DNA from: Halorussus halophilus
GTDB lineage: Archaea > Halobacteriota > Halobacteria > Halobacteriales > Haladaptataceae
DNA length: 64,000 nucleotides
NCBI RefSeq assembly: GCF_008831545.1
Contig: NZ_CP044524.1
Location: 248,001-312,000, forward strand
Direction of reading: 5' to 3'
This document shows positions 55,182 through 64,000 of the stretch, one piece after another. Made by a program: the position numbers and the translations under genes. The notes under the pieces are model-generated. The model was not told where the DNA came from. It searched no databases and worked only from the letters and a program-made list of their open reading frames with translations. Positions within the stretch are counted from its first letter, which is position 1. The number at the start of each line of letters is the position of its first letter.

Positions 55182-55598
55182 TCAACAGCAGTAGATGAAC
55201 GGGTACATGAGCGCGACCCGGTCTCCCTCCGTCAGTTGCGAGTCCAACCCGTCGATGTGCTCGTTGAACGTCCCGTTGATAGTGACTCTGGCGTACGCTC
55301 GGGTCTGTTCGCCTTCGGGGTTCTTCCGCCACGTACCGGGAAGGTCGCTCGGTTGCTTCGTCCACCCACGCGTCGTCGCGTCCGCGCTGGTCTCTGCGAT
55401 GAGCATGTCGCTCACGTCGTGGACTTCGAAGAAGGCGTCGAGGAACTCTCGAAGCGTCGAACCCTCGAAGGTGAACGAGAGTCGTGGCGCGCCGACGGCG
55501 CGCCGAACGTGTCCCGTACAGCGCACCTCCACTGTGGTCGTCTCGTCGCTCGACAGTTCGGTTCGTTCGCCGCTGTCACCCTTCGCCTGCGATTCCAT
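55182..55598 (-). CDS. MoaD/ThiS-like beta-grasp protein ending in Cys-Cys
   Basis: A 138-residue protein with a ubiquitin-like fold of the MoaD/ThiS type: VEVRCTGHVRRAVGAPRLSF, STLREFLDAFFEVH, ARVTINGTFNEHIDGLDSQL and GDRVALMYPFIYCC. In MoaD and ThiS the C-terminus is Gly-Gly, activated by adenylation to carry sulfur; here the last two residues are Cys-Cys. Sulfur transfer in the usual way is therefore unlikely. It is divergent from an HTH regulator gene, with a perfect 16-bp palindrome in the shared control region, and sits in the denitrification locus. Its start is near 55598; its own role is unknown. Confidence 0.75.
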   Translation of the reverse strand: MESQAKGDSGERTELSSDETTTVEVRCTGHVRRAVGAPRLSFTFEGSTLREFLDAFFEVHDVSDMLIAETSADATTRGWTKQPSDLPGTWRKNPEGEQTRAYARVTINGTFNEHIDGLDSQLTEGDRVALMYPFIYCC

Positions 55599-55634: not shown

Positions 55635-55650
55635 CCCGAACATGTTCGGG
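55635..55650. promoter_or_regulatory. Palindrome of NarO-box type, divergent MoaD-like/HTH promoter
   Basis: CCCGAACATGTTCGGG is a perfect 16-bp palindrome, centred 15 bp before a TATA-like CTTAAGTA (55655-55662) of the HTH gene. The CGAAC-AT-GTTCG core resembles the motif I recall for the Haloferax volcanii anaerobic regulator NarO upstream of denitrification genes. Confidence 0.65.
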
Positions 55651-55690: not shown

Positions 55691-56314
55691 ATGACGACTG
55701 CGAAATTACACGTCACGCTTCCAGAAGAGGTATGGATAGGCCACGTTTCGGCCAGCCATCCGGAGGCGGAGTTTCGGGTCCTGGCCGCGTTCCCCGCCGA
55801 GGAGACGGGCGTCGGACTGCTAGAGATTTCGTCGTCGGACCTCCGCGCCGTTTTGGAGACGATGGACGACCAGACGGGCGTCGCGGGGTTCGAACTCCAC
55901 GAAGCGGCCGAAGAGATGGCTCTCGTCGAATTCGAAACGACCGAACCACTGCTGCTGACGTCGATTCAGGAGGCCGGACTCCCTCTCCAACTGCCGTTCA
56001 CTATCGAAGATTCGGTAGCGACGGTCGAAATCACCGCCTCGCGCGAGCGTCTGGACGCGTTCACGACGCAGTTACAACTGTTCGAGATGCCCTTCGACGT
56101 CGAGTACGTCCGCGAGATGACCAGTTCCGAAAGTCTGCTCACCGACCGCCAACGGGAGTTGCTGGACGCCGCAATCGAGAAGGGGTACTACGACACGCCG
56201 CGAGACTGTTCGCTTACGGACCTCGCAGAAGCGACCGGCGTGGCGAAATCGACGGCGAGCGAGACGCTTCACCGCGTCGAGGAGAAAATCATCAAGGAGT
56301 ACTGCGAGCGGTAG
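55691..56314 (+). CDS. HTH-10 family (bacterio-opsin activator-like) transcription regulator
   Basis: A 207-residue protein. The N-terminal 145 residues are a beta-rich haloarchaeal sensor region (EEVWIGHVSASHPEAEFRVL, TSIQEAGLPLQLPFTIED). The C-terminal 55 are the HTH-10 domain: LLTDRQRELLDAAIEKGYYD, RDCSLTDLAEATGVAKSTAS and ETLHRVEEKIIKEYCER. Relatives include Bat, DmsR and NarO. Only two cysteines are present, both in the C-terminal part, so an N-terminal Cys-bound Fe-S oxygen sensor is unlikely. The ATG at 55691 is preferred over a GTG at 55679. It may regulate the MoaD-like gene and itself. Confidence 0.83.
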   Translation: MTTAKLHVTLPEEVWIGHVSASHPEAEFRVLAAFPAEETGVGLLEISSSDLRAVLETMDDQTGVAGFELHEAAEEMALVEFETTEPLLLTSIQEAGLPLQLPFTIEDSVATVEITASRERLDAFTTQLQLFEMPFDVEYVREMTSSESLLTDRQRELLDAAIEKGYYDTPRDCSLTDLAEATGVAKSTASETLHRVEEKIIKEYCER

Positions 56315-57587
56315 CCGTCCGTCGTTCCGCGCTGGCCAACCGGCCAGCAGTCGTCTTCGCCTCTCGAATCCGACCGGGAATCCCCGCACGGGACGTGTAG
56401 TTCGTACACAGGTGTACTCCCTCCGGCATCGAAATCCGGTCCAGCGCGGTCCAGGTTCGGTCGTAGGCAGGCATTCCGCGCGCCAACCGATGCACCGACA
56501 GTGCCCGCGCGGAACGACCTGTTATCTCCTCGAATTCTGTTCTTGCCACGGACGCGAGTCGCTCGTCGCTCCACTCGACCAACTTTGGATTTCGGGCCCC
56601 GCCGAGATAGCACGTGTAGACGCCGTCTCGGTCTAGCAGACTCGCGTTCCAGGTCACGCCGAGTGTCCGGAAATCCTCCTCGTACTGGACTTGGTAGCCT
56701 GCCCCTGACAGGTCAGCCTCGGAGTACAGGTGGACGATGGCCTGCGGATTGTAGTTCAACCGTCGAAGCGAGTCCGCGGAATCGGGGGAGACGTCGCCGA
56801 AGAGGCCAGCGGTCACGTCCGCCGGTGTGGTGACGACGAGTTCGTCTACGACCGTCTCGCCGGTCGGCGTTTCGAGCACGAACGCAGACCCGCCCCTGCG
56901 TACCGCTCGAATCGGCGTTCCGAGTTCGACGCTCTCGCCGTGAGCGTTCGCCAATGATTCTGGCAGTCGTTGGAGTCCGTCGTCGAACGAAACTATCGGG
57001 GGTGCTTCCCGACCTGCCAGAAGTTTGCGAGCGACGGACGTCAGCACGCTCCCCTCGATTCCGGCCGAGTCGAGTGCTTTCGACAGTGAGTACTTCATGA
57101 GCATCTCGTCGGGATGCGACCCGTAGATGCCGCCGTAGAGCGGTCCGAAGTAGTACCGTGCGACTTCGTCGCCGAACTTGCGAGACAAGAACGCCTCGAC
57201 CGTCTCGCCATCGACCGCGGGACCGGTCGCGGGTTCGAGTAGCACGCGGAGTTTCCCGCCCCACGAGAGTAGGTCGGTCGTCACTGACTCGCGCGGCGTC
57301 TGTGGCACTCGTCGGAGTGTCCCGTGATGATAGACGTACAGTGGGACGTCGGCGGCCTCGCGGAGTTCCGACTCCAGGCCGAGCGATTCGACCAGCGACG
57401 AGATACTCGGCGTGAGTCGGGTCCGCTGTGGGCCGAAGTCGAGGACTCGTCCAGCGACCGTCTCGCTGCGGACGACGCCACCCGGGTCGTCGTCAGCCTC
57501 GAAGACGACGCTCTCGATGCCTGCCTCTCGGAGATAGTGGTGGGTTGCTAGCCCGGTGATGCCACCGCCAATAATACCGACTCGCAC
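56292..57587 (-). CDS. Protoporphyrinogen/coproporphyrinogen oxidase-type flavoprotein
   Basis: A 431-residue FAD enzyme of the HemY/CgoX amine-oxidase-fold family. The dinucleotide-binding start is VGIIGGGITGLATHHYLREA; VFEADDDPGGVVRSE binds FAD; VLDFGPQRTRLTPSISSLVE and YYFGPLYGGIYGSHPDEML are typical; the FAD-binding end is HLCTNYTSRAGIPGRI. It oxidises porphyrinogens during heme synthesis. The GTG at 57587 is chosen: a GGAGG ribosome site precedes it by 8 nt and the upstream stop is 1 nt away. It is last in the halocyanin/radical SAM operon. Its 3' end overlaps the convergent HTH gene by 23 bp. Confidence 0.85.
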   Translation of the reverse strand: MRVGIIGGGITGLATHHYLREAGIESVVFEADDDPGGVVRSETVAGRVLDFGPQRTRLTPSISSLVESLGLESELREAADVPLYVYHHGTLRRVPQTPRESVTTDLLSWGGKLRVLLEPATGPAVDGETVEAFLSRKFGDEVARYYFGPLYGGIYGSHPDEMLMKYSLSKALDSAGIEGSVLTSVARKLLAGREAPPIVSFDDGLQRLPESLANAHGESVELGTPIRAVRRGGSAFVLETPTGETVVDELVVTTPADVTAGLFGDVSPDSADSLRRLNYNPQAIVHLYSEADLSGAGYQVQYEEDFRTLGVTWNASLLDRDGVYTCYLGGARNPKLVEWSDERLASVARTEFEEITGRSARALSVHRLARGMPAYDRTWTALDRISMPEGVHLCTNYTSRAGIPGRIREAKTTAGRLASAERRTATARSTP

Positions 57588-57588
57588 G

Positions 57589-57954
57589 TTATCGCCCTCC
57601 GAACAGTTCGAGGACGGTGGCTTCATCGACCTCGTCGGCGACGAGTCTCGCTACCCAGCCATCGACTAACCCGTCGGAGATTCGAGTCGAAAGGCGGACG
57701 AGGGCAGCTCTTTGCTCGGGGTTCAGGTCGCCGTTTGCCGCCAATCGGTCGAGGGCAGTGTCGAGTTCTCGCCGACGGACGTACTCGCCGTACTCACGGA
57801 GTCGGACTGCGACCGTCTGCGGGTCGGTAGTTCGGTCTGGGTCCGAGTCGGCGGTCCCGACTGTTTCTGATTCGACCCTGAAGCCGTTCGGGAGTACGGA
57901 ATTGGTTCGTTTCTCCGAGACGACCCGCCCGGTCGAATCCGTCTCGTCAGTCAT
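57589..57954 (-). CDS. Small protein resembling the glutamyl-tRNA reductase dimerisation domain
   Basis: A 121-residue soluble protein. The N-terminal half is polar and probably disordered. The C-terminal half, about residues 50-118 (VRLREYGEYVRRRELDTALD, NGDLNPEQRAALVRLSTRIS, DGLVDGWVARLVADEVDE), resembles the helical dimerisation domain of HemA-type glutamyl-tRNA reductase, without its catalytic or NADPH domains. It overlaps the radical SAM stop by 4 bp (ATGA) and is 1 bp from the flavoprotein start. Its place in a tetrapyrrole operon supports a link to heme synthesis, perhaps as a regulator of the full-length reductase (inference). Confidence 0.7.
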   Translation of the reverse strand: MTDETDSTGRVVSEKRTNSVLPNGFRVESETVGTADSDPDRTTDPQTVAVRLREYGEYVRRRELDTALDRLAANGDLNPEQRAALVRLSTRISDGLVDGWVARLVADEVDEATVLELFGGR

Positions 57955-59081
57955 GGCCGTCCCGTAGCGCTCGCTTCCCACGGGAGTGGTCCGTCGTACG
58001 CTTCGGGGACGAACGAACAGAGTGGGTCGCTCCCGAAGGGGTCGCCGGTCGTCGCGAACGCACGCGACCGACTGCCACCGCAAACGGTTCGGTAGGCACA
58101 GGCTCCACATTTCCCACGAAGCGCGTCCTTGTTACGGAGCGATTTGAACAGGTCGGCGTTCCGGTAGACGTCTACGACGCTGCTGTCGCGAACGTTTCCA
58201 GCGGACTGGGGCAGGAACCCAGAGGGATACACCTCCCCGACGTGACTCACGAAGGCGAAGCCGTCGCCTGCGGTGATTCCCATCTGTCGTTTCGGAGACT
58301 TGTCTGTCTGCTCGATTGCGACCCGCCGGTAATGGGGCGCTTCGGTCGTCTTGAGGCCGAACGGCCACTCGTCGTCGTTCTCCACGAGCCACTCCATCAC
58401 GTCCTCCGCTTCCTCGGGCGTAATCGGCTCTAAGGCCGCTCCGCGTCCGACCGGTACGAGAAAGAAGACGCTCCAGAGGACCGCGCCGAGGTCGGCCACG
58501 AGTTCCGCGATTGCCGGCAGGTCACCGACAGTCTGGCGACAGACGGTGGTGTTCACCTGGAGGGGGAGCCCGGACTTCTGGGCGGCACGTGCTGCGGTCA
58601 TCGTGTCCTCGAAGCTCCCCGTTTCCCCACGGAACGCGTCGTGGTGTTTGGGAATCGAGCCGTCGATGCTGAGTGCCATCCGCCGCAGTCCGGCGTCTGC
58701 GAGTTCGGACACCGCGTTCGGTGTGAGCGACGTGGTCCCGCTCGGGGTCATGGTGACGTTCAAACCGATGTCTGTGCCGTACTCGACGAGTTCGAGCGCG
58801 TCGTCGCGCTTCAACGGGTCGCCACCCGAGAAGACGACCAGTTGTCCCTCGCCGAACTCCCGGGTCTGGTCGAGGAGGCGCTTTGCCTCTTCGGTCGTGA
58901 GCTCTCGGGGGTGCCGGTCGGGTTGGGCGTCGGCCCGGCAGTGTTCGCAGGCGAGGTCACAGGCCTGCGTGAGTTCCCATATCAACACGAAGGGGCGCTC
59001 GGCCGTATCGACGCGACGCGGCGGCTTGGGTGACCGACGCCCCGGGTTCGGTCCGGCCGGTCCGGTCGCTGGTTCGGACAT
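57951..59081 (-). CDS. Radical SAM/SPASM protein of heme-maturation type
   Basis: A 376-residue radical SAM enzyme. The 4Fe-4S/SAM motif CDLACEHC (C-x3-C-x2-C) is near residue 41; FSGGDPLKRDD is the GGE-like SAM-binding motif; the SPASM-type C-terminus has CGACAYRTVCGGSRSRAF plus a late Cys in DPLCSF. Relatives (AhbC, AhbD, NirJ) modify porphyrin side chains in the siroheme-to-heme and d1-heme pathways. Because the nitrite reductase here is the copper type, a role in ordinary heme synthesis or repair is more likely than d1 heme. Second gene of the operon, 9 bp after halocyanin. Confidence 0.82.
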   Translation of the reverse strand: MSEPATGPAGPNPGRRSPKPPRRVDTAERPFVLIWELTQACDLACEHCRADAQPDRHPRELTTEEAKRLLDQTREFGEGQLVVFSGGDPLKRDDALELVEYGTDIGLNVTMTPSGTTSLTPNAVSELADAGLRRMALSIDGSIPKHHDAFRGETGSFEDTMTAARAAQKSGLPLQVNTTVCRQTVGDLPAIAELVADLGAVLWSVFFLVPVGRGAALEPITPEEAEDVMEWLVENDDEWPFGLKTTEAPHYRRVAIEQTDKSPKRQMGITAGDGFAFVSHVGEVYPSGFLPQSAGNVRDSSVVDVYRNADLFKSLRNKDALRGKCGACAYRTVCGGSRSRAFATTGDPFGSDPLCSFVPEAYDGPLPWEASATGRP

Positions 59082-59090
59082 GAGAGCGTG

Positions 59091-59639
59091 TTACTCCACG
59101 ACGATTGCGCCTTTCATGCCCATCGTCTTGTGCGGCTCACAGTAGTACTTGTACGTGCCCGAACTCTCGAACGTGTGCGAGAAGGTGTATCCCGCCTCGG
59201 ATTTCATCTCGCTCTCGAACTCGCCGCTGTCGGTAACGACGTTGTGCGCACCGCCTTCTCCGGTCCACTTCCAGACGACTTTCGTCCCTGAGGCGACTTC
59301 GAGTGCCGCAGGTCCGAATCCGAACGCGCCGTTGTTCCCTTCGGCACCGACTTCGACGGTCACTTCGGAACTTCCCGTTTTGTCGGCGACGCCATCGTAG
59401 TTCGACACGTCGTCGAACCACCCGTCGAAGCTGACCGAGTTGCTGCCAGAATCACTACCTCCGCTCTCTTTGGTGGTGTCACTATCTTCGTTCTCATTGC
59501 TGGTGTCACTTGCACTCGTGTCGCTGCCGTCTGAACCACCCGTATCACCGGTACTCGTACAGCCAGCGAGTGCAGCACTGGCCGCGCCGACCGTTATCGT
59601 CTTCAGTACCGTTCGTCGGTCGAGTGTATCTCGAGTCAT
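59091..59639 (-). CDS. Halocyanin (blue copper lipoprotein)
   Basis: A 182-residue membrane-anchored cupredoxin. Tat signal LDRRTVLKTITVGAASAALA and lipobox LAGC, then a Ser/Asp/Gly-rich tether (about 27-70), then the copper domain with ligands His in GGAHNVVTD, and Cys, His and Met in YYCEPHKTMGMKG. It carries electrons outside the membrane to oxidase CuA or to NirK. A minus-strand TATA box (59663-59671) lies 28 bp before the ATG at 59639, which is preferred to the ATG four codons upstream. It heads the heme operon. Confidence 0.9.
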   Translation of the reverse strand: MTRDTLDRRTVLKTITVGAASAALAGCTSTGDTGGSDGSDTSASDTSNENEDSDTTKESGGSDSGSNSVSFDGWFDDVSNYDGVADKTGSSEVTVEVGAEGNNGAFGFGPAALEVASGTKVVWKWTGEGGAHNVVTDSGEFESEMKSEAGYTFSHTFESSGTYKYYCEPHKTMGMKGAIVVE

Positions 59640-59662
59640 CTTCGGTTTCACCTATTTGCCTC

Positions 59663-59671: not shown

Positions 59672-59707
59672 GGGGTAGCTCTGATTCTCACCCAGTGAAA
59701 ACGTGGA

Positions 59708-59721
59708 CCGAACGTGTTCGG
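59708..59721. promoter_or_regulatory. NarO-type palindrome between halocyanin and NO reductase genes
   Basis: CCGAAC-GT-GTTCGG is an inverted repeat with the same half-sites as the palindrome at 55635-55650 but a GT spacer. It lies between the divergent halocyanin operon and the nitric oxide reductase gene, so it can act on both. Confidence 0.62.
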
Positions 59722-59786
59722 GGCCTTCTCAACTTCCAAGAACGACGTCTCCGATACAAGTCACGATACCTGTAATCTCGGCGTGT

Positions 59787-62081
59787 ATGAAAGTCAAACG
59801 TAGCACACTCGCGAAGATACTCGCGGTCGTCTTCGTGTTGAATCTGGCCGTAATGGGTGTGGGTGCGTGGTTCTCCTACCAGGCGGCACCGCCCATCCCC
59901 CAGGAGGTAGAAGGGCCGAACGGCGAGACCATCGTCACCGGAGAACAGGTTCGAGAGGGCAAGACGGTCTTCCAGTCGAACGGCTTGATGAACCACGGAT
60001 CGATACTTGGCAACGGCGCGTACTACGGCGAGGACTTTACCGCCGATACACTGGACTTGAATGTGCAGTTCATGCGTCAGTATTACGCCCGCGAACAGTA
60101 CGGGACCGACTCCTATGGCACGCTCACGTCCCGCGAGCAGGCGACAGTAGACGTCGCGGTGAAGTCGGACCTCGCAGACGGCAACCCGGGCAACCGAATC
60201 CAGTACTCCGCCGCAGAAGTGTACGCACACGAGCAGGTGAGGCAGGTGTACGTCGAACGCTACCACGAAGGGAGCCACGAACGTGGTGTCCCGGTCGGCA
60301 TGATAGAGACCGAGGCGGAGGCCGAGCGATTCGCCGACTTCGCCCTCTGGACGGCGTGGTTCTCGCACACCGACCGCCCCGGTGGCAGTCACAGTTACAC
60401 CAACGATTGGCCGTACAACCCCGCCGCTGGTAACGAAGCGACTGGCGCGGCGATGACGTGGAGCGTGGTCGCGATGGTGCTGCTCGTCGCGGGTGCAGGC
60501 GTCGGCGTCTGGCTCTACAAGTCCATCGAACTCACCGAACCCGAGACGGAGGGCGTCACGATTCCCCGGCCCGACGAGGTGGACCTCTTCCCCGGACAGG
60601 CCGCCGCGCTCCGGTTCGTCCTCGTCGGCGCAGGGCTCTTCCTCGGACAGGTGTTGCTCGGTGGACTCCTCGCTCACTACTATATCGAGCGCGCGGAGTT
60701 CTTCGGACTGGGTGAGATGCTCGGTATCAACGTCCTGCAACTACTGCCCTTCTCCATCGCCAAGACGTGGCACATCGACCTTGGCATCCTCTGGATAGCC
60801 ACGCTCTGGCTCGGCGCGGGGCTGTTCCTTCCCCCGCTACTGACCGGGCGCGAACCGAACAAGCAGGGCACGTACGTCAACGGACTGCTCGCCACGCTCG
60901 TCGTGGTCGTCGTCGGCGGCCTCGCAGGCATCTGGCTCGGTTCGAAGGGCTACTTCGACGGCAATCTCTGGTGGATATTCGGCAACGAGGGGCTCGAATA
61001 CCTCGAAATCGGGCGACTCTGGCAGGTCGGCATCCTCGTGGGCTTCCTCGCGTGGGCGGGGCTGACCGCACGCGGCCTGAAACCACTACTCGACCGCGAA
61101 CCGCGCTATGGACTCGCGCACATGATCCTGTACGCGGGCGGCTCCATCGCGCTACTGTTCTGTGCAGGCTTCCTCTACACCCCGCAGACGAACATCGTCG
61201 TCACGGAGTTCTGGCGCTGGTGGGTCGTCCACATGTGGGTCGAAGGAGCCTTCGAGTTCTTCATCGTCGCCCTGGTCGGGGTCACGCTGGTCAGCATGAA
61301 CCTCCTGTCCAAGCGTTCGGCCGAGAAGGCGGTGATGGTCCAAGCCCTGCTCGTGATGGGTACGGGCGTCATCGGCGTCTCTCACCACTACTGGTGGGTC
61401 GGCCAGCCAGACATGTGGGTGCCCATCGGGAGCGTCTTCTCGACGCTCGAACTCATTCCGTTGGTGTTCATCCTCTACGAGGCCATCGGTCAGTACCGAG
61501 CGATGGCGGACAGTGGGGAGTCGTTCCCGTACACCCTCCCGTTCATGTTCATCGTCGCCAGCGGCGTCTGGAACTTCGTCGGGGCGGGCGTCCTCGGGTT
61601 CTTCATCAACCTGCCGTTCATCAACTACTTCGAACACGGCACCTACCTCACGGTGGCCCACGCCCACGCCGCAATGTTCGGAGCGTTCGGCTTCCTCGCG
61701 CTCGGCATGGTGACGTACATGCTCCGCATCGCGGTGCCCGAGGGCAAGTGGTCCGAGACAAACCTCCGGCGGGCGTTCTGGGCGTGGAACGTCGGCCTCG
61801 CGCTGATGGTCGGCCTTAGCTTGCTCCCGGTCGGCTTCCTCCAGTTGGAGGTGGCGTTCACCCAGCACTACGATGCCGCCCGAAGTCTGGCGTTCTACGA
61901 GGGCGACCTCGTCCAACTGCTGTTCTGGGCGCGGATGCCGGGCGACGTGCTGGTCATCCTCGGCACGGTGATATTCGGATACGACGTGGTGAAGAAGGTG
62001 CTGAACCGCGGTGAGACGACGCCGACGGAGGGGCCAGCGGACTCGCCGCTCGCAATCGAGTCGCCGCTCGACGACGACTGA
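59787..62081 (+). CDS. norB: Quinol-dependent nitric oxide reductase (qNor)
   Basis: A 764-residue heme-copper superfamily protein. The N-terminal extension (about 40-230) is the cytochrome c-like fold without heme-binding Cys, as in quinol-type NorZ/qNor: KTVFQSNGLMNHGSILGNGA and YTNDWPYNP. The catalytic part has about 12 helices with the metal-site residues HMWVEGAFEFF (His and Glu, about 481), SHHYWWVG (about 532) and AHAHAAMFGAFG (about 624). It reduces two NO to N2O with quinol electrons. The ATG at 59787 is preferred; an upstream in-frame start would run into the control region. Confidence 0.93.
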   Translation: MKVKRSTLAKILAVVFVLNLAVMGVGAWFSYQAAPPIPQEVEGPNGETIVTGEQVREGKTVFQSNGLMNHGSILGNGAYYGEDFTADTLDLNVQFMRQYYAREQYGTDSYGTLTSREQATVDVAVKSDLADGNPGNRIQYSAAEVYAHEQVRQVYVERYHEGSHERGVPVGMIETEAEAERFADFALWTAWFSHTDRPGGSHSYTNDWPYNPAAGNEATGAAMTWSVVAMVLLVAGAGVGVWLYKSIELTEPETEGVTIPRPDEVDLFPGQAAALRFVLVGAGLFLGQVLLGGLLAHYYIERAEFFGLGEMLGINVLQLLPFSIAKTWHIDLGILWIATLWLGAGLFLPPLLTGREPNKQGTYVNGLLATLVVVVVGGLAGIWLGSKGYFDGNLWWIFGNEGLEYLEIGRLWQVGILVGFLAWAGLTARGLKPLLDREPRYGLAHMILYAGGSIALLFCAGFLYTPQTNIVVTEFWRWWVVHMWVEGAFEFFIVALVGVTLVSMNLLSKRSAEKAVMVQALLVMGTGVIGVSHHYWWVGQPDMWVPIGSVFSTLELIPLVFILYEAIGQYRAMADSGESFPYTLPFMFIVASGVWNFVGAGVLGFFINLPFINYFEHGTYLTVAHAHAAMFGAFGFLALGMVTYMLRIAVPEGKWSETNLRRAFWAWNVGLALMVGLSLLPVGFLQLEVAFTQHYDAARSLAFYEGDLVQLLFWARMPGDVLVILGTVIFGYDVVKKVLNRGETTPTEGPADSPLAIESPLDDD

Positions 62082-62175: not shown

Positions 62176-62187
62176 AGAACATGTTCG
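62176..62187. promoter_or_regulatory. NarO-type site upstream of nirK
   Basis: AGAAC-AT-GTTCG matches the palindromes at 55635 and 59708 in all but one position of the left half-site. It lies about 90 bp before the nirK start and 35 bp before a TATA-like ATTAAAG (62222-62228). A second short inverted repeat, GAGAA/TTCTC (62206-62220), sits between them. Confidence 0.55.
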
Positions 62188-62267: not shown

Positions 62268-63335
62268 ATGCCAACCACTCGACGCACGGTCCTGCAGGGA
62301 ATCGGTGTCGGCGGTGCAGCGTCACTCGCTGGCTGCTCGGCCGACTCTGCACCACAAACGAACAGACGACGAACGGAGAAAGCCACGAGCAAACAGCAAC
62401 AGAAGACAGTCGAGCGCGTCGCTGCAGACCCGACCGACATTCCCGACCCCATCAGTCGGACCGAGCCAAAGGAGGTCGAGGTAACGCTTCGCCCCGAGGA
62501 GGTCACGGGCGAAATCGAAGACGGTGTGACGTTCACGTACATGACGTACAACGGGCAGGTACCTGGCCCGTTCATCAGGGTCCGGAAAGGTGACACGGTG
62601 AACCTCACCTTCGAGAACCCCGAAGAGAACGCCATGCCCCACAACGTGGACTTCCACGCCGTCGCAGGACCGGGCGGCGGGGCAGAGGCCACCATGACCG
62701 CTCCGGGCGAAACGGCCCACCTGAAGTTCAAGGCGACCTACCCCGGCGCGTACATCTACCACTGTGCGGTCCCGAACATGGACATGCACATCTCGGCGGG
62801 GATGTTCGGTATCATCCTGGTCGAACCAGAGGAGGGACTGCCCGAAGTGGACCACGAGTTCTACTTCGGCCAGCACGAAATATACACCGACAAGCGCGCG
62901 GGCGAGGAAGGCCACCACGAGTTCAGCATGGGTTCGATGCCCCGCGAGGACCCGACGTACGTCCTGCTGAACGGCGAGAAGTACGGCATCACACCCGACA
63001 ATCGTGGCTCACCGACGGTGCAGACGGGCGACACCGCGAGGGTGTACTTCGTCACGGGTGGCCCGAACCTCACCAGTAGCTTCCACCCTATCGGCAACGT
63101 CTGGGAGAAACTCTGGCCCGAGGGGTCGCTGACGACGGAACCGCAGACCCACATCCAGACGAAGCAGGTCGCACCAGGGAGCACCACTGTCGCGACGATG
63201 AACTTCCCCGTCCCGGGCGCGAGTAAACTCGTTGACCACTCGCTCAGCCGCGTCATGCGGAAAGGTTGTCTAGCGGTCATCGAGGCCGAAGGAGCGGAGC
63301 GTCCCGACATCTTCGACCCGGACCCCGACACGTAA
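62268..63335 (+). CDS. nirK: Copper-containing nitrite reductase
   Basis: A 355-residue two-cupredoxin enzyme with Tat-like signal (TTRRTVLQGIGVGGAASLAG) and lipobox LAGC. Domain 1: MPHNVDFHAV supplies a type 1 His, the catalytic Asp and a type 2 His (about 122-130); YIYHCAVPNMDMHISAGM supplies type 2 His and type 1 Cys, His and Met (about 161-178). Domain 2: SSFHPIG (catalytic-pocket His, about 272) and LVDHSLSR (type 2 His, about 323). It reduces nitrite to NO outside the membrane, feeding the neighbouring nitric oxide reductase; halocyanin is the likely donor. Confidence 0.95.
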   Translation: MPTTRRTVLQGIGVGGAASLAGCSADSAPQTNRRRTEKATSKQQQKTVERVAADPTDIPDPISRTEPKEVEVTLRPEEVTGEIEDGVTFTYMTYNGQVPGPFIRVRKGDTVNLTFENPEENAMPHNVDFHAVAGPGGGAEATMTAPGETAHLKFKATYPGAYIYHCAVPNMDMHISAGMFGIILVEPEEGLPEVDHEFYFGQHEIYTDKRAGEEGHHEFSMGSMPREDPTYVLLNGEKYGITPDNRGSPTVQTGDTARVYFVTGGPNLTSSFHPIGNVWEKLWPEGSLTTEPQTHIQTKQVAPGSTTVATMNFPVPGASKLVDHSLSRVMRKGCLAVIEAEGAERPDIFDPDPDT

Positions 63336-63514: not shown

Positions 63515-64000
63515 TCACTTCTCGCCGTAGCGTTCTCGGAAGAGTCCCCAGAGCAGGTACGCGTAGAGGCCCGCTCCGACGAGCGCAAGCAGTCGCCCGA
63601 CCAGTACCACGCTGTCGAGGCCCGCGAGTAACCCTCCGGCCTCGACGCCAACACCGACTGCGAGACACCCAATCGAGATACCTGCCGTCCGGTCTCCTGC
63701 TGCCGGAAACGTCCCGACTCCCGGCGGGTAGAACTGGTAGGCGACCCCGACGATGGTGAGTCCGAGGAACCCGAGCACGTTCAATCGAAAATGGGCGAAC
63801 GCCCCGTTCACAATCGGACCACCGAACGCGAAATGAAGGCCGAGTGCGACGCCAGCGACACCTGCGAGGGACCCGACTACGGGGCCGTAGAATCCGACTC
63901 GACGACGATCCGACCGACGAAAGAGGACGAGGTAAGCCACCGCAAACCCGACGATGGCGGTACTCTCTGCGACGGCACCAATCCGGAACCAGACCGTCCC
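63515..64000 (-). CDS. Polytopic membrane protein next to nirK, partial
   Basis: The frame is open to the right edge, so the N-terminus is missing; about 161 residues remain with five hydrophobic helices. The segment GAFAHFRLNVLGFLGLTIVG followed by VAYQFYPPG resembles the heme-binding helix region of NorB/CcoN-like heme-copper subunits and related short haloarchaeal membrane proteins, with one conserved His, but the fragment is too short to assign. The C-terminus is WGLFRERYGEK. It converges with nirK across 179 bp that contain the regulator fragment. Confidence 0.6.
   Translation of the reverse strand, partial: GTVWFRIGAVAESTAIVGFAVAYLVLFRRSDRRRVGFYGPVVGSLAGVAGVALGLHFAFGGPIVNGAFAHFRLNVLGFLGLTIVGVAYQFYPPGVGTFPAAGDRTAGISIGCLAVGVGVEAGGLLAGLDSVVLVGRLLALVGAGLYAYLLWGLFRERYGEK

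Follow-up and report, generated by a model that had tools for sequence, protein, structure and literature searches.

A cysteine-tailed MoaD/SAMP-fold protein of Halobacteria with an anaerobic-type promoter element

A gene of Halorussus halophilus, located within the window (the whole stretch of 64,000 nucleotides that was analysed), encodes a small protein with the predicted fold of the MoaD/SAMP sulfur carriers and a C-terminus that bears cysteine. The favoured explanation, to which we assign a probability of roughly 0.45, is that this protein is a Halobacteria-specific descendant of MoaD/SAMP that has abandoned the C-terminal glycine chemistry, and that the thiol of Cys137 would act as an E1-independent carrier of sulfur (as a persulfide) or of a thiolate ligand. 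The features of the window to which the analysis refers are the following:

55182-55598 (-): Cys-tailed protein of predicted MoaD/SAMP fold (arCOG00539-type), 138 aa, tail Y132-P-F-I-Y-C137-C138
55182-55205 (-): codons of the tail YPFIYCC and stop; Cys137 at the terminal-Gly position of MoaD, Cys138 extra and variable
55299-55388 (-): codons of the family-specific conserved insert, residues ~71-100, with W79, P87-G88 and N93-P-x-G96
55637-55648 (no strand): palindrome CGAACATGTTCG (CGAA-N4-TTCG), common to the divergent promoters
55691-56314 (+): divergent HTH_10 regulator of the bacterioopsin-activator type; the same kind adjoins homologues
57951-59081 (-): radical SAM/SPASM protein TIGR04053 (AhbD-related), recurrent neighbour of the family
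59091-59651 (-): halocyanin, regulon context
59703-62081 (+): norB-type quinol NO reductase, regulon context, with a palindrome at 59709-59720
62268-63335 (+): nirK copper nitrite reductase, regulon context, with a one-mismatch palindrome at 62176

Fold and distribution of the Cys-tailed protein

The open reading frame starts with ATG and ends in ...GDRVALMYPFIYCC followed by a TGA stop, the C-terminus being ...EGDRVALMYPFIYCC (residues YPFIYCC). The Pfam ThiS score of the protein is 20.7 bits, below the cut-off of 22.5, and the curated cut-offs of SAMP1 and moaD_arch are not reached either (20.6 vs 60 bits and 21.5 vs 49.5 bits, respectively). The assignment to the MoaD/ThiS-like beta-grasp proteins proposed in the initial annotation is borne out by the family as a whole, since 29/31 members match the ThiS superfamily (PF02597, best 1.2e-07) and the profile-profile comparison with haloarchaeal SAMP1/MoaD gives a probability of 96%. 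With the AlphaFold model (mean pLDDT 78, about 95 in the core), the top PDB neighbours retrieved by Foldseek are SAMP1 (2l52), HVO_2177 (2m19), MoaD (1vjk) and 6jbz, with E from 1e-5 to 2e-4 and TM by target of 0.64-0.76. On these profiles and on this model, the protein is predicted to have a beta-grasp fold whose nearest relatives are SAMP1 and MoaD.

The comparison with SAMP1 and archaeal MoaD (TIGR01687, NF041918; PDB 2l52, 3po0, 2m19) reveals a common fold, C-terminal strand and tail length, and a shared NG-x-x-x-H-L-D-G-L-x-T-x-L-x-D-G-D block. Unlike these proteins, the Cys-tailed one is devoid of Gly-Gly, has Cys at the position of the terminal Gly plus one residue, scores far under the family cut-offs, and harbors an insert of ~30 residues (~71-100) which is missing from canonical MoaD and in which the confidence of the model is low. 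The superfamily match to ThiS is likewise accompanied by the absence of GG, and no thiamine genes were seen near the Cys-tailed gene. Ordinary GG-ended MoaD proteins are encoded separately in the same genome.

Homologues of the Cys-tailed protein, mostly sharing 50-76% identity, were found in 245/391 haloarchaeal species searched; plasmid copies are present on nine haloarchaeal megaplasmids, and a search of phages retrieved zero homologues. In the profile search of a phylum sample, the family was confined to Halobacteria: the matches in other archaea were weak and covered no more than the final strand of canonical MoaD proteins, and the non-Halobacteria matches inspected were of the canonical MoaD/SAMP type, carrying GG at the C-terminus or close to it.

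The initial annotation held that no such component had been described. A CC-ended family had, however, already been noted in 2010 by Makarova & Koonin (PMC2948915) as arCOG00539, a Halobacteria-specific beta-grasp protein with a double-cysteine C-terminus, in a single sentence giving no function, regulon or gene context. We take the Cys-tailed family to be arCOG00539, matched by description and not by accession: both are beta-grasp proteins restricted to Halobacteria with a conserved CC C-terminal motif, the CC end occurring in 89/119 homologues and a C-x end in 26 more. Beyond the 2010 description, the homologues show that the second Cys is dispensable and that the promoter element extends across the lineage. 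The literature search found no paper beyond the 2010 survey naming arCOG00539, no C-terminal-Cys Ubl persulfide carrier, and no published tie of the family to an anaerobic regulon.

The C-terminal tail

The statistics of the tail were obtained from 119 distinct homologues, whose last two residues are CC (89 sequences), CL (13), CV (8), CF (4) or CY (1), the remaining few being mostly tandem paralogues without Cys or degenerate ends. Tandem paralogues lacking the terminal cysteine are found at loci L116, L120 and L139, with ends FLFAP(RS) and LVEPLTV. A GG end occurs in 0/119, so that the loss of Gly-Gly first read in the single sequence extends to the family; close homologues end in C-[C/L/V/F/Y], and GG ends were seen only on distant canonical MoaD/SAMP proteins. 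The idea that an ordinary GG-ended MoaD was hit by a local mutation or a sequencing error has a negligible probability and was discarded, given the number of species carrying the family, the absence of GG ends and the separate GG-ended MoaD of the same genome.

The family has a conserved aromatic tail, [YFN]-P-F-x-[FY]-C-x, in which Cys137 is conserved at 97% and the last position is Cys in 76%. The spacing from D126 to Cys137 is of 11 residues in 114/114 sequences and equals that from Asp/Thr to the terminal Gly in SAMP1; moreover, a gapless alignment from the conserved G-D places Tyr136-Cys137 in the register of Gly-Gly, with Cys138 one residue past. The description of the end as "Cys-Cys in place of Gly-Gly" is therefore off by one, even though the CC end is real and Gly-Gly is gone; in the same way, the expected conservation of the C-terminal CC applies to Cys137 and not to the pair.

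The initial annotation also regarded the two terminal cysteines as a vicinal dithiol. As a functional unit, this is unsupported and was rejected because about one homologue in four has L, V, F or Y in place of the last Cys, with about 11-13 changes of the last residue state on trees built without the tail, only the penultimate Cys137 being nearly invariant. Judging from the homologous sequences, the protein can fulfil its role without a vicinal dithiol. An intramolecular Cys27-Cys138 pair was rejected as well, both cysteines being dispensable among homologues; the association between C27 and C138 has a p of 8e-5 without tree correction, with C27 having changed once only and few supported independent pairs. 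No CxxC and no second invariant Cys or His emerged near the tail from the conservation of the family.

A hydrophobic tail with a CC/CX end might also suggest a lipid anchor (prenylation-like) or a non-glycine conjugation end, making the protein a modifier, and the 2010 survey put CC families beside GG-type Ubl proteins (PMC2948915). This reading is very unlikely in view of the last residue, which varies freely among C, L, V, F and Y. Furthermore, archaea are not known to possess a Cys-prenyl transferase, and conjugation through E1 chemistry needs glycine.

Promoter element and gene context

The intergenic space between the Cys-tailed gene and the HTH_10 regulator, which is indeed divergent from it as the initial annotation stated, is 92 bp long and contains CGAACATGTTCG. 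A second palindrome, CGAACGTGTTCG, lies at 59709-59720 at norB, and a one-mismatch form, AGAACATGTTCG, at 62176 upstream of nirK, in agreement with the early observation of a palindrome common to neighbouring promoters. In the entire 4.45-Mb genome, CGAACATGTTCG was found 3 times. Two further palindromes beyond the window are located on the main chromosome, one at C1:1958292 (L181), flanked by a large membrane protein and by an HTH_10 regulator similar to that of the window, and the other at C1:1959352 (L182), with a cupin gene on one side and a DUF3054 gene on the other.

Among homologues, the exact palindrome is present upstream of the Cys-tailed gene in 108/123 distinct regions, and 9 more carry it with one mismatch, the background being about 0.06 per 300 bases with the family sites counted in. 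As controls at the same loci, nirK has the palindrome in 8/9 cases, SAMP1 in 0/38, AOR in 0/21, c3 in 0/34 and USP in 0/10; the count for c4 (23/34) is due to the divergent promoter that c4 shares with the Cys-tailed gene. The control named c3 is a small GG-ended protein (ending AGG) adjoining SAMP1/AOR, without a Pfam match (L013:4751-5020 and relatives), and is probably arCOG06308 (TBP-like fold, GG end) of Makarova & Koonin.

In Haloferax mediterranei, the same sequence is a promoter element of nor and nos, whose mutation lowers anaerobic promoter activity (PMC10062603), and in Haloferax volcanii CGAA-N4-TTCG is common to the promoters of denitrification genes (nirK) and ahbD (PMC5746218). 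In genomes without nirK and norB, the exact palindrome is still present at 20/24 testable Cys-tailed loci, and this persistence argues for a gene of the anaerobic regulon rather than one specific to denitrification. As judged from the DNA element, the Cys-tailed gene is a stable member of an anaerobic (NarO-type) regulon broader than denitrification; the denitrification regulon of the initial annotation was thus right as to the type of regulon and too narrow as to its extent.

In terms of gene content, nirK occurs in 160/245 genomes with the Cys-tailed gene vs 55/146 without it (odds ratio 3.1), and norB in 163/245 vs 43/146 (odds ratio 4.8), both uncorrected for phylogeny. The co-occurrence suggested for checking is significant and modest. 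An obligatory dependence on nirK/norB was rejected, since 49/245 genomes carrying the gene are without both and 29 genomes with both are without the gene. In a subset of 80 genomes, no co-occurrence was observed either with the radical SAM protein TIGR04053, rejected as an obligate partner, or with the NarG-type enzyme, for which the model used detects haloarchaeal members poorly.

The neighbours of the gene vary between lineages and many copies are solitary. In Halobaculum, the gene is followed by norB and has nirK close by; in other lineages, the neighbours include nirK, a ~404-residue membrane protein (2-bp gap), a COX1-like membrane protein, DUF420, DUF2249, the CGCGG small protein, HTH_10 regulators and TIGR04053 radical SAM proteins, while in Haloarcula, Halorussus and others the gene stands beside the SAMP1/AOR locus. 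Operon-like links were observed with norB, nirK, the ~404-aa membrane protein and DUF420, and links also with the loci of the AhbD-like radical SAM protein and of SAMP1/AOR. Neither an obligate partner nor a constant dedicated sulfurtransferase was identified among the neighbours of the different lineages.

Some of these neighbours deserve a mention of their own. The ~404-aa multi-pass membrane protein, which matches nothing in Pfam, comes 2 bp after the Cys-tailed gene in Halorussus relatives (L007:5262-6476), and a fragment similar to it adjoins nirK at the edge of the window, at 63515-64000 (-). The run at 56292-59081 (-), between the regulator and halocyanin/norB, comprises a protoporphyrinogen-oxidase-like amine oxidase, a small protein with a GlutR dimerisation domain and the AhbD-like radical SAM protein, and may be a gene cluster for anaerobic heme synthesis. 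The CGCGG small protein (TIGR03995, annotated as a radical-SAM-modified RiPP) recurs with TIGR04053, nirK/norB, DUF2249 and HTH_10 genes at loci L068, L071, L073, L075, L076, L079, L084, L090, L092 and L116 and on plasmids L160 and L161. HVO_2144, in the nirK/norB cluster of H. volcanii, is the AhbD heme synthase according to its deletion phenotype (PMC5746218); if it corresponds to the TIGR04053 protein, CGCGG, rather than being a RiPP, may serve the heme pathway as an accessory.

The gene context is relevant to two other explanations. According to the first, the thiolate of the terminal Cys might bind copper, heme iron, an Fe-S cluster or NO, and the protein would serve the NorB/NirK group of metalloenzymes as a chaperone or sensor and not carry sulfur. 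The recurrence of norB, nirK, the COX1-like membrane protein, DUF420 and the AhbD-like radical SAM protein, the metal-dependent regulator and heavy-metal ATPase lying near the gene on a Haloprofundus plasmid, and the near-invariant Cys on a flexible hydrophobic tail are all consistent with it. Nevertheless, the lack of a CxxC or of a second invariant Cys or His by the tail, with Cys27 and Cys138 dispensable, and the many nirK+norB genomes without the gene, and the reverse, make it a doubtful alternative, albeit one of some weight. According to the second, the protein might be a dead MoaD/SAMP decoy docking on MoaE, UbaA or another SAMP partner in anoxia, and tuning Mo/W-cofactor synthesis or sampylation. 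The fold shared with SAMP1/MoaD, the MoaD-like length and position of the tail and the adjoining SAMP1 and AOR could fit a decoy; such a protein, however, would need neither a near-invariant Cys nor a specific conserved insert, and SAMP1 and AOR are without the palindrome, so that we consider it distinctly improbable.

A possible role of the Cys137 thiol

The adenylation and thiocarboxylate chemistry of E1 enzymes requires a C-terminal glycine. Hence, a protein devoid of this glycine should have neither E1 adenylation nor thiocarboxylate formation available, and, since the Cys137 thiol would be located where the sulfur of the thiocarboxylate would be, a role as persulfide carrier or thiolate ligand is the simplest reading. 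In the scheme that we favour, the protein would descend from the MoaD/SAMP sulfur-carrier fold and have given up the glycine C-terminus, with the lone thiol at the end of the tail standing in for the activated carboxylate. Sulfur would be carried as a Cys137 persulfide, or a thiolate ligand offered, without any E1 enzyme, and delivered into the active site or the cofactor site of a partner that is produced when oxygen is low, with the conserved insert and the hydrophobic tail possibly forming the docking surface. Candidate partners are heme/heme-copper-type membrane proteins, the AhbD-like radical SAM enzyme and the neighbouring Mo/W-cofactor enzymes. The more specific proposal of an E1-independent, Ubl-fold persulfide carrier for anaerobic metabolism, in which an encoded thiol replaces the thiocarboxylate at the same point, is advanced with considerable reserve and is on the whole unlikely.

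Sulfur carriers of the QbsE/PdtH type have residues, often Cys, after a GG that is kept and to which they are trimmed. They resemble the Cys-tailed protein in the sulfur-carrier fold and in the residues, often Cys, past the glycine position; unlike them, the Cys-tailed protein has no GG to expose. In TusA and in rhodanese-type persulfide carriers, a single Cys carries the sulfur, and this is the chemistry proposed for the Cys-tailed protein, although the folds are different.

More than half of the sampled haloarchaeal species keep the Cys-tailed gene behind a promoter element of the denitrification type, with a consistency equal to that of nirK. This pattern of sequence conservation points to a candidate unstudied thiol protein of anaerobic life and provides a new, concrete knockout target for research on haloarchaeal denitrification and anoxia. 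If it is true that the Cys137 thiol does the work of the glycine thiocarboxylate, the family would show a ubiquitin-like sulfur carrier escaping E1 activation.
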